DNA of 64,000 nucleotides from Nocardiopsis gilva YIM 90087 (GTDB lineage: Bacteria > Actinomycetota > Actinomycetes > Streptosporangiales > Streptosporangiaceae): the NCBI RefSeq assembly GCF_002263495.1, contig NZ_CP022753.1, positions 1,860,001 to 1,924,000 on the forward strand, given 5' to 3'. A model generated the notes under the pieces. It was not told where the DNA came from and made no database searches. It saw nothing but the letters and a program-made list of their open reading frames with translations. Positions within the stretch are counted from its first letter, which is position 1. Every line of letters starts with the position of its first letter. Below, one piece after another: positions 59,762 to 64,000 of this stretch. Position numbers and translations under genes: made by a program.

Positions 59762-60292
59762 ATGTTCGCGTTCGATGATCAGTTACGCGAAATCCTGGCA
59801 ATACCCGGCGTATGCGGTGCGGCTTTGGTGGATTATCGAAACGACCACGTCGTCGCCGCCATCGGCCCGGATCCTGCGGAAGAGCGTGAACAGGCCCGCT
59901 GGTCGGCCAGAGCCGTCGGCCAGGTCGTGGGCGACCGCCTCTTCCGCGCGCGGCACGCGTGCGGCAAGGGGTCGCTGGACGACCTCGTCATCACCCGGGG
60001 CAACACCCGGTTGCTGGTGGCGGCGGTGCGCGCCGGACCGGGGGCGCAGCTGTGCGTCCAGGTCAGGATGGACCGCCGGGACGGAAACCTCGCCTTCGCC
60101 CGCAGACGGTTGCGCGGGGTGCTGCGCCCGACCGCGCACACCCGGCCCTCGCCCACCCCCGAGCCGCCACACGCCCCGTTGCCGCCCCGGCCCCGCCATC
60201 CCGAGCGTCCCGCGTCGGGAACCACGCTGGTCGCCGGCCGCCCCGACACCGCCACCCTGTACCGCGTCCTGGAGGCGCTCAAGCAACTCTGA
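59762..60292 (+). CDS. Roadblock/LC7-like hypothetical protein
   Basis: 176 residues from ATG 59762, with GGAGG 6 bases before it. The first 120 residues (MFAFDDQLREILAIPGVCGAALVDYRNDHVVAAIG ... LDDLVITRGNTRLLVAAV) have the alternating helix-strand pattern of roadblock/LC7 dimers, which regulate small GTPases of the MglA type. The rest is Pro/Arg-rich and disordered. No GTPase is next to it. The assignment is tentative. Confidence 0.55.
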   Translation: MFAFDDQLREILAIPGVCGAALVDYRNDHVVAAIGPDPAEEREQARWSARAVGQVVGDRLFRARHACGKGSLDDLVITRGNTRLLVAAVRAGPGAQLCVQVRMDRRDGNLAFARRRLRGVLRPTAHTRPSPTPEPPHAPLPPRPRHPERPASGTTLVAGRPDTATLYRVLEALKQL

Positions 60293-60491: not shown

Positions 60492-63400
60492 ATGGGGTGC
60501 GACGTGTCGGTCCCTTCTCCCGACTCATCCGTTCGGGACCGCCGCAGAGGCGGCCCGGCGCGTGAGGAACACAGTCCACGGTCGGCAGAGTCCAACGGCG
60601 ATGTGACCGTCCTGATCGTGCCGCCCGCGACCACGTCCCGACCGTCGGTCCCCACCCCCGCCCCGCAGCCCGAACCCCACCCCGGCCACCACCGCACCAC
60701 CGACGGCCGCGTCCGCGCGCTCCTCGACTACTACCGCGCCTGCGTCCACCGAGAGGCCGTCCTCGACCACCTCATCGAACTCGGCGGTGCCGACACCCCG
60801 AGCGCGTCCAGCGGCCACCACTGCCTGCCCGCCGGGACCGAGACACTGTTCAGCGGAGCAGGTGAGGACCTGCTTGTTCCGCCCGAGGCCAACGGCGTGT
60901 TACGGGCGGCCCGGCGCGAGGGCCGCCCCCTGCGCTACGGCTACCCGGTCGTCCTCCTCGCCCCCGACCCGGCCGCCGACGCCGCGGACGAGGGGCCCGG
61001 CGACGTCATCGACTCCCGCTGGCGCGCCGCCCCACTGCTCGTCACCGACGTCGAGGTCGTCCCCGACACCGAGGAACCCCGGGTCCGCGCCGTCTCCGAG
61101 CCCGACGTCAACCCCGCGCTGCTCCGCCGGGCCGGCATCACCGACCCCGAGGAGCTCGCCGCCCTGCGCGCCGTCCTCCGCCAGGGCGCCTCCGAGGGCG
61201 ACCGCCCGCACGACGGCGTCGTCCTGGACCTGGAGGCCAAGGTCCGTACCCTGCTCACGCGCCTCGACATCGACCGGGTCGACGACATCGTCCCGCGCGC
61301 GATCCGCGGCACCCTGCCGCACCTGTACCCCCGTGCGGGAGCGCACAACGTCGCGGTGCTGTTCCGCTCCGGTCCGGCCGAACACGCCGCGCCCAACGAC
61401 GAACGTCCGGGGACGATCACCGGGCTGCTCGCCGACCTCGACCCCGGGCACCGCGACGGTCCCCGGCCGGGACAGGCCGACGGCACCGCGCTCGAAGCCC
61501 TGCTGGAGGGCGAGGGCGGAGCGGGATCGCCGCACACGGCGCCGCCGGGGCGGCCGGCACGGGGCTCCGAGGCCACACGCGAGGAGGCCGTCCTGCCCGT
61601 CGCCGACGGCCGCCTCACCGAGGCGCAGTACGCGATCCTGCGCTCGGCGATGCGCGAACGCCTCACGGCGGTCGCCGCACCGCCCGGGACCGGACTGGCC
61701 GACCTCATCGACGCCGCCGTGCGCACCGCCGTGGTCGCCGACCAGAGCGTGCTCGTCGCCTCCGCGGAGGAACCCCTGCTGGACCGGATCGTGCGCCGGG
61801 CCGGGGAGGCCCCCGGCCACCTGGTTCTGCGCACCGGCCACCCCGACCACCGGAGCAGAGAGATCCGCACCCTGGAACGGCTGGTCGAACAGCCGACGTC
61901 ACCCCCCGATCTCACCCCGCACAACGGCAGCCTGCGGGACGACTGGTCCCGGGTCGACAGCGCGTGGAAGTCCATCGACGCGATCGCGCACAACGGGCAC
62001 TCTCTCGCGCGCTTGGCCGAGGAGCGCGGTGAGATGATCGGCCACGGGTGGGACCCTGATGCGCTCTTCACCCCCGAACACGGCGACCCGGGCTACTGGC
62101 TGCGGCGCGCCGAACGGGCCCGGGGCGGCGGGTTCGTCGCGCTCGCGCACCGGTCGGCCATCCGCCGCGAACTCGGCGTGGAGCCCACACCGGAGAACCT
62201 GCAACGGCTGTGCCGGGTAGCGCGGATCGAACTCGACTGGCGCACCGCCCTCGACCGCCGCCGCCGAACCCCGATGCTGGCCGGTCTGCTGGCCGACCTC
62301 GAAGCGGCGCAGGCCTGCCACCGCCTCTCCGGCGACTCCTGCCTGCGCGGTGTCGTCTCCCGGCGGGCCGGCCGGGGCCGACAGGCGCTGCTCAACCGCC
62401 TGGAGACCCTCAACTGGCACCACACCACCGGCTGGCCCGGCTTCGCCCACCTGCTCACCGTCGTCCCCGCCTGGGCGGTCGGCGTCCGCGCGGCACGCGC
62501 CCTGCCGCCGCAGGCCGGACTGTTCGACCTGGTCGTCGTGGCCGGGGCGGAGCACTGCCGGATGGCCGAGGTGCTGCCGCTGCTCTACCGCGCCAAGCGG
62601 GCGCTGGTCATCGGCGACCCCGCCCAGCCCGCCCCGCCCACCCTGCTCGAACCGGCGGAGGAGCAGCGGTTGCGCGGCGCCGCCGGTCCCACCTGGCTCG
62701 ACCGGCGTCCCGAGCTTGGCTACGCCGGATACTCCGCCTACGAGGCATGCGCCGCGGCGACCTCCGCCTCCCGGAACCAGCACCACTGGCTCGACGAGCA
62801 CGACCGCTCCCACCCGACCATCGCCGCCCTGGCCTCCCGCCACTGCTACGGCGGCCGGATCGCGGTGACCACCGAGCCCGCGAACCTCCCGACACCGGTG
62901 CGGACGGCGCCGGAGGACCGGGCGACGAACGGGCATCACCCGGCGCCGCCGTCGCGCGGGGCCGACCGCGGCGGCCGGGCCGTGGAATGGCGGCACTTCT
63001 CCGGGGACTGCGAGCCCGTCCCCGGCGCGTCCGGCATCAACCGCGAGGAGGCCTACCGGGTCGCCGTCGTCCTCCAGGAGCTCGACGGCGCGCTGCCCGA
63101 GGATGCCGTGATCGGGGTCATCGCCCCTTTCCAGCCGCAGTGGGCGCTCCTGCGCAGACTCGTGCGGCGGCAGGGCTTCGGCCGGCAGATCAGAGTGGGC
63201 GGCGTCGAGGAGTTCCGGGGCGAGGAGAACGGTGCCGTGGACGTCATGGTGGTCTCGCCGACGGTGGCCACCGACGCCCCCGCGCGGCTCGTCGACCGCG
63301 CCGTGCGTTCCCAGGCGTGGGCCACCGCGCTCACCCGCACGGTGTCGCGGTTGATCGTCGTCGGCGACCGCTCGTTCTGGTCCGGCACCGACAGCCCCCT

Positions 63401-63728
63401 GCGCGACCTGTGCCCCTTCGCCGACACCGTCGAGGAGGAGAGCACGGCACTGCGCAACCTGCGTTCCGCCCTGCAAGCGCGAGGCGCCCCGGTCACGCAG
63501 CGCCCCTCGTTCCATGGACACCAGGCCGACCTGTGCGTCGACACCGGCCGGGGGCCGGTCCTGGTCCTGCTCGACCACGCCCGCAGCGGCCTGGAACTGC
63601 GCCGCCTGTTGGCCCACGGCGAGCTGCTGACGCGGCTCAGCGGCCACCCCGCCGTGTGCGTCCCCGCCTGGCGCTGCCTGCACGACCCGCCCTCGGTGGT
63701 CAACGAGATCCTGCACGGCGGCGACTGA
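60492..63728 (+). CDS. Degenerate SF1 helicase-like protein (probable pseudo-enzyme)
   Basis: 1078 residues with SF1 DNA2/UPF1-type helicase layout. At the Walker A place it reads APPGTGLADL (about 396-405), with Leu402 where the essential Lys belongs. At Walker B it reads FDLVVVAGAEH (about 678-688), with Ala-Gly for the Asp-Glu pair. Motif III (VIGDPAQPAPPT) and the V/VI region (VGGVEEFRGEENGAVDVMVVS, WATALTRTVSRLIVVGD, with its Arg) are retained. The N-terminal 380 residues are unassigned. A C-terminal domain (from about 1015, ADLCVDTGRGPVLVLLDH) resembles a nuclease fold. ATPase activity is unlikely. The start is uncertain (ATG 60492; GTG 60603 possible). Confidence 0.75.
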   Translation: MGCDVSVPSPDSSVRDRRRGGPAREEHSPRSAESNGDVTVLIVPPATTSRPSVPTPAPQPEPHPGHHRTTDGRVRALLDYYRACVHREAVLDHLIELGGADTPSASSGHHCLPAGTETLFSGAGEDLLVPPEANGVLRAARREGRPLRYGYPVVLLAPDPAADAADEGPGDVIDSRWRAAPLLVTDVEVVPDTEEPRVRAVSEPDVNPALLRRAGITDPEELAALRAVLRQGASEGDRPHDGVVLDLEAKVRTLLTRLDIDRVDDIVPRAIRGTLPHLYPRAGAHNVAVLFRSGPAEHAAPNDERPGTITGLLADLDPGHRDGPRPGQADGTALEALLEGEGGAGSPHTAPPGRPARGSEATREEAVLPVADGRLTEAQYAILRSAMRERLTAVAAPPGTGLADLIDAAVRTAVVADQSVLVASAEEPLLDRIVRRAGEAPGHLVLRTGHPDHRSREIRTLERLVEQPTSPPDLTPHNGSLRDDWSRVDSAWKSIDAIAHNGHSLARLAEERGEMIGHGWDPDALFTPEHGDPGYWLRRAERARGGGFVALAHRSAIRRELGVEPTPENLQRLCRVARIELDWRTALDRRRRTPMLAGLLADLEAAQACHRLSGDSCLRGVVSRRAGRGRQALLNRLETLNWHHTTGWPGFAHLLTVVPAWAVGVRAARALPPQAGLFDLVVVAGAEHCRMAEVLPLLYRAKRALVIGDPAQPAPPTLLEPAEEQRLRGAAGPTWLDRRPELGYAGYSAYEACAAATSASRNQHHWLDEHDRSHPTIAALASRHCYGGRIAVTTEPANLPTPVRTAPEDRATNGHHPAPPSRGADRGGRAVEWRHFSGDCEPVPGASGINREEAYRVAVVLQELDGALPEDAVIGVIAPFQPQWALLRRLVRRQGFGRQIRVGGVEEFRGEENGAVDVMVVSPTVATDAPARLVDRAVRSQAWATALTRTVSRLIVVGDRSFWSGTDSPLRDLCPFADTVEEESTALRNLRSALQARGAPVTQRPSFHGHQADLCVDTGRGPVLVLLDHARSGLELRRLLAHGELLTRLSGHPAVCVPAWRCLHDPPSVVNEILHGGD

Positions 63729-63928: not shown

Positions 63929-64000
63929 GTGCCCGAGGGCCACACACTGCACCGGCTTGCCGGCCACTTCACCAAGCACTACGGGGGGTCCCGCGTCCGG
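63929..64000 (+). CDS. nei: Nei/Fpg-family DNA glycosylase, 5' end only
   Basis: The first 24 codons from GTG 63929 (VPEGHTLHRLAGHF...) reach the window edge. The catalytic Pro2-Glu3 is present, and the PEGHTLHRLA pattern is that of actinobacterial endonuclease VIII (Nei), a repair enzyme for oxidised pyrimidines. GGGAGGAGCGAC gives a strong ribosome site. It follows the pseudo-helicase. Confidence 0.88.
   Translation, partial: MPEGHTLHRLAGHFTKHYGGSRVR

Follow-up and report, generated by a model that had tools for sequence, protein, structure and literature searches.

A likely pseudohelicase of Nocardiopsis gilva and related genera derived from a caspase-SF1 helicase conflict protein

The window analysed here is a 64,000-nucleotide stretch of Nocardiopsis gilva YIM 90087 DNA, near the end of which the gene for a large helicase homologue lies between a small gene and the start of a DNA glycosylase gene (Table 1). 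An earlier sequence-only reading had reported that its 1078-codon frame is open, and this was confirmed. The GC content by codon position (0.79/0.55/0.92) is as expected where a genome is rich in GC and the gene is genuine.

Table 1. Genes, motifs and predicted domains at the pseudo-helicase locus (window positions)
Feature	Position	Strand	Remarks
Small upstream gene, roadblock-like by eye	59762..60292 (about)	+	Homologues before the pseudo-helicase in 5 loci only
Pseudo-SF1 helicase gene	60492..63728	+	1078 aa, ATG start, open frame
Stalk helix (res. 70-91) and 1B-like beta barrel (about res. 104-200), before RecA1	60699..61091	+	AF2 model; Upf1/IGHMBP2 structural match from residue 70
Motif I (Walker A) APPGTGLAD	61674..61703	+	Leu codon 61695-61697; Lys in intact relatives
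Motif Ia, degenerate	61749..61784	+	VLVASAEEPLLD vs VLVASTNNTAVD
Helical stalk/insert (res. 475-645)	61914..62426	+	Six of nine pseudo-only invariant residues: W485 D496 D521 F526 H610 R625
Motif II (Walker B) VVVAGAEHC	62532..62558	+	62541-62546 = Ala-Gly; Asp-Glu in intact relatives
Motif III remnant VIGDPAQPAPP	62607..62639	+	Motif alignment
Motif V, degenerate	63201..63257	+	GVEEFRGEENGAVDVMVVS
Motif VI remnant, Arg kept	63318..63368	+	WATALTRTVSRLIVVGD
C-terminal domain, restriction-endonuclease-like fold (predicted)	63429..63725	+	D1013, D1028, no E-x-K; AF2 pLDDT 85.8; VIA Z 9.2 to 3hrl, 8.1 to Vsr
Fpg/Nei-family DNA glycosylase gene, 5' end	63929..64000, continues past the window	+	Fapy/H2TH/zf-FPG; conserved syntenic neighbour

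The product is a homologue of the Upf1/IGHMBP2-type SF1 helicases. It matches the Pfam model AAA_12 above the cut-off (2.3e-15) and AAA_11 below it (3.7e-5), and the NCBIfam IGHMBP2-helicase model is matched in part (3.1e-13). The AlphaFold2 model, which was built from an input alignment of 18 rows, has a mean pLDDT of 67, a pTM of 0.62 and several disordered stretches, with the RecA domains and the stalk mostly well predicted. Its best structural matches are UPF1 and IGHMBP2 (6ej5 and 4b3g; VIA Z 18.9, rmsd 4.1-4.3, 437-443 residues), a kinship on which the sequence profiles agree. The elements of an SF1 Upf1-like fold, i.e., two RecA domains, a stalk and a 1B barrel, are thus present in the predicted model alongside the AAA_12 match, and the window protein resembles Upf1, IGHMBP2, Sen1 and Dna2 in these predicted features. 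Unlike these helicases, it carries a nuclease-like fold at its C-terminus. Modelled alone (pLDDT 85.8), this domain is similar to the endonuclease-like structures 3hrl, I-Bth0305I and Vsr (VIA Z 9.2, 8.9 and 8.1), and the model gives it a restriction-endonuclease-like fold (Vsr/DUF559/Hjc/VRR), which bears on the earlier suggestion that the domain could be a nuclease. Foldseek matches were weak (best E 0.004) and the assignment is therefore restricted to the fold level. D1013 and D1028 are invariant in a 17-row alignment, and neither E-x-K nor x-H-D was seen there or in an intact paralogue of the same genome; given that the usual catalytic set is incomplete, in the paralogue too, nuclease activity of the domain appears doubtful.

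An active SF1 Upf1-like helicase requires GxGK[S/T] in Walker A and Asp-Glu in Walker B. As had been read from the sequence, the window protein has Leu at the position of the Walker A lysine (residue 402) and Ala-Gly in place of the Walker B acids, and it further differs from Upf1, IGHMBP2, Sen1 and Dna2 in the degradation of motifs Ia, IIIa and V. This loss is shared. Homologue searches, the family-wide one with n=100, led to 26 full-length orthologues spread over at least nine GTDB genera, Nocardiopsis and Streptomonospora among them; all 26 fall into one clade with 100/100 support in two trees. The gene is kept by many soil and marine bacteria of the Nocardiopsis type. The protein of another genome of the same genus is 78% identical, all 6 genomes searched from a second genus in the family carry the gene, and matches occur in Nocardiopsis and Streptomonospora nanhaiensis records and in further genera. 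The frames stay open and full-length down to about 45% identity. The Walker A lysine is absent from every orthologue (0/26), being replaced by Ala, Val, Asp, Leu or Gly, and the Asp-Glu of motif II is complete in a single one (1/26, G082), whereas both are present in each of the nine intact relatives that served as a comparison (9/9). The P-loop glycines are largely retained in the family, and the nucleic-acid-contact motifs Ia, IIIa and V are strongly degraded. The earlier statement that residues of motifs III and VI remain holds for the window protein (GDPAQ; ALTRT..RL..VGD) and for the motif VI arginine of the family (22/26), but not for the motif III glutamine, which is kept in only 6 of the 26. 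The G082 orthologue (L081 8402-12367, - strand) has an intact IDEAD at motif II and Ala for the Walker A lysine, which suggests that the lysine was lost earlier than the motif II acids. An apparent frameshift near residue 165 was observed at one locus (L052:9797-12930) in the draft assembly of Nocardiopsis sp. CNR-923 and could be an assembly error. No paper naming the family was found in a search of the open-access literature.

Selection has been maintained on the gene despite these losses. Ka/Ks values for eleven pairs within the family range from 0.23 to 0.43 (Li93 method, approximate in genomes this GC-rich) and overlap those among the intact relatives (0.15-0.30). The lowest values within the gene, 0.12-0.29, are found in the stalk and in the half of RecA1 that contains motif II. 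Over the eight helicase motifs, mean column entropy is 0.36 in the intact proteins but 1.29, about the background level, in the pseudo family, and that of the non-motif helicase columns is unchanged (1.41 vs 1.43); catalytic constraint has therefore been lost and structural constraint kept. In addition, nine residues that the intact relatives lack reach at least 92% conservation in the pseudo family, and six of these nine lie in the stalk. Common loss of catalytic residues together with maintained selection, the mark of a pseudohelicase, was hence found, in agreement with the earlier proposal of a conserved pseudo-ATPase and not a decaying gene. On its residues, the window protein is a likely pseudohelicase that would be catalytically dead. 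Decay or sequencing error was ruled out by the 26 open orthologues and the Ka/Ks values. That the gene is decaying, or an annotation artefact, and has no function is accordingly the least probable of the explanations weighed here: its Ka/Ks exceeds the values of most neighbouring genes (mostly 0.1-0.25, few higher) by a factor of about 1.5-2.5 and one locus is frameshifted (L052), but full-length orthologues with Ka/Ks well under 1, substitutions biased to the third codon position and new invariant residues all stand against it. It is also very unlikely that nucleotide is still used through a non-canonical site, for example by binding without hydrolysis as a switch. The largely kept P-loop glycines and the motif II Asp-Glu of G082 would suit such a site, but no replacement lysine is seen and the motif columns change about as fast as the background.

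In almost all genomes the pseudo-helicase occupies the same site, between a GABA-aminotransferase/PucR pair and the Fpg/Nei-family glycosylase. This fixed chromosomal site argues for vertical inheritance, unlike mobile defence genes; for the window copy, a mobile defence gene was ruled out by the conserved synteny, and no plasmid match was found for it. The sequence-only reading had correctly placed a glycosylase beside the helicase homologue, but functional coupling of the two was rejected: about 200 bp separate them in the window, and genes for 1-phosphofructokinase and HPr lie between them in G070, G071 and G082, so that the tie is one of synteny only and the glycosylase gene is probably not part of a pseudo-helicase system. 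The other neighbour named in that reading, a roadblock-like gene, was matched by no profile. PF03259 (Roadblock/LC7) gave no match to it at E<=5, and the gene is absent from the 11 matches of this model in the genome; no Pfam or NCBIfam model matched it, and a profile-profile comparison (hhalign) with eight true roadblock genes that this genome encodes gave P 0.08, which is not significant. Its homologues precede the pseudo-helicase only in G000, G001, G070, G071 and G082. A roadblock partner is thus unconfirmed by profiles and upstream in these five loci only, and whether the small gene belongs to a pseudo-helicase system is uncertain. At two loci (L083:4969-6113 and L084:5870-6969), the gene of a caspase-helicase dead in both domains has small genes in tandem upstream of it, of about 206-220 aa and 123-158 aa; these genes are related to each other and are likewise roadblock-like by eye, without a Pfam or NCBIfam match.

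The nearest relatives of the pseudo family are intact proteins that combine a caspase with an SF1 helicase and have a small EACC1-like gene upstream. One such paralogue is encoded in the same genome about 22 kb past the end of the window; it has 1257 aa, a caspase domain, an SF1 helicase domain and intact APGTGKS and DEASQ motifs. Its caspase matches the NCBIfam model 'caspase, EACC1-associated type' with 4.5e-40 and 137.4 bits, just under the cut-off of 140. The upstream neighbour, of 146 aa with one hydrophobic segment, seems to fit EACC1 as portrayed in the literature (PMC7159879), a match by description only. This intact pair of an EACC1-like gene and a caspase-SF1 helicase gene, which overlap, lies at L008:11978-16188 (genome C1:1944978-1949188). 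Among the pseudo orthologues, five basal ones (G068, G070, G071, G082 and G112) retain a caspase domain, in which the His of SGHG has given way to Arg, Tyr, Gly, Val or Thr, and the second Cys of DCC to Gln, Arg, His or Gly. The remaining 21, the window's included, form one branch of the tree and are devoid of the caspase domain; the Pfam caspase model gave no match in the window protein. At the 15 loci judged by sequence, an EACC1-type gene is absent upstream of the pseudo-helicase, and the genes found there (PucR regulators, roadblock-like genes and others) are unrelated to the neighbour of the intact paralogue. We show in this way that the pseudo-helicases have a single origin from an EACC1-type caspase-SF1 helicase protein and were inherited vertically, and that loss of the Walker A lysine dates to the base of the family. 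Since the relatives are intact caspase-helicases, the basal caspases are dead and the domain is gone from the window's branch, the family represents a conflict protein that is doubly dead and has been domesticated.

EACC1-associated caspases with variable C-terminal effectors have been defined as System 4 (Kaur et al. 2020, PMC7159879), and it is an accepted theme of the conflict systems of multicellular bacteria that they include inactive copies of enzymes (PMC7159879). The intact sister group resembles System 4 in its N-terminal caspase, C-terminal SF1 helicase and overlapping small upstream gene. The window family differs from it in lacking an EACC1 gene, in the dead residues of its caspase and ATPase and in its one fixed chromosomal locus, and the window's branch also in the absence of the caspase. 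Given that it has neither the residues of an active SF1 helicase nor the components of an EACC1-caspase system, the pseudo-helicase is best filed as a domesticated dead derivative of the latter. Among PADLOC models, the helicase-like MkoA and MkoC gave the best matches (4.3e-17 and 1.2e-14 for the window protein, 1e-63 for the intact paralogue), but these cover only part of the models, the common part being the generic helicase core. A precedent is PriA of Deinococcus radiodurans, a conserved pseudohelicase that has lost its ATPase motifs, still binds DNA and interacts with DnaB (PMC4504706). The window protein is similarly a bacterial helicase homologue conserved after loss of the ATPase motifs; it differs from PriA, whose pathway and partner are known, in being an SF1 Upf1-like protein of conflict-system origin.

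Retention by selection after the loss of the ATP residues suggests a new, non-enzymatic job. The best explanation, and one towards which we lean, is that the pseudo-helicase works as an ATP-independent scaffold or adaptor of single conflict-protein origin. The RecA, stalk and C-terminal folds remain under purifying selection, and a rigid Upf1-like body would offer, on its stalk helices, a putative new surface for interaction with other proteins; it would act independently of whatever active paralogue the cell may have. A scaffold is considered the most likely role because the stalk is where the new invariant residues cluster and the motifs that make the canonical nucleic-acid contacts are degraded; the loss of contact residues in motifs Ia and V favours protein binding over tracking along a single strand. 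A specific form of the DNA-binding role proposed alongside the scaffold in the sequence-only reading was not supported, as motifs Ia, IIIa and V are degraded as well, and neither was a functional link with the roadblock-like gene, found upstream in five loci only, or with the glycosylase, a syntenic neighbour. The main rival to the scaffold is nevertheless an ATP-independent nucleic-acid receptor, in which the dead helicase and the nuclease-like fold would clamp DNA or RNA and pass on a signal. We consider this possible, if less than probable. Such a role has been proposed for inactive NTPases of bacterial conflict systems (PMC8195603), and DNA binding has been shown for D. radiodurans PriA (PMC4504706); the predicted Upf1-like fold with its 1B barrel and the nuclease-like C-terminal domain are retained, the motif VI arginine persists in 22 of the 26 orthologues, and the barrel, the nuclease fold and the motif VI region are other candidate binding surfaces. 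Against it stand the strong degradation of the canonical contact motifs and a net charge that is slightly negative in most members checked, the window's included. A further possibility, that the protein regulates the intact caspase-helicase paralogue or acts on it as a dominant-negative partner, would accord with the presence of both in this and other genomes. It is unlikely because many genomes have the pseudo gene alone: no intact paralogue match was obtained in the genus-mate G001, in G030, G061, G063, G082, G084 or in others.

Returning to the scaffold and its history, we give even weight to the truth or otherwise of a fuller account, in which a caspase and SF1 helicase conflict protein became a core-genome double pseudoenzyme, gained new stalk residues, later dropped the caspase in one branch and took on a constitutive non-enzymatic role unlike its former one. 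Intact caspase-helicases, dead caspases joined to dead helicases and dead helicases alone form a natural series, with the dead forms at a fixed locus, and this series makes the fate of conflict-system proteins after the loss of catalysis directly testable. Pseudohelicases that are proven or likely make up a short list, to which a bacterial case of the SF1 Upf1-like kind is now added.

Lysine is very scarce in the window protein (3 Lys in 1078 aa). The mean content of the 26 orthologues, one of which has none, is 0.33%, compared with 1.2-2.5% in the intact relatives; for the other genes of the orthologue loci the median is 1.07%. Lysine deserts are common in bacteria that bear pupylation (PMC10665810). 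For the pseudo-helicases, GC pressure on released sites may be enough to account for the scarcity.
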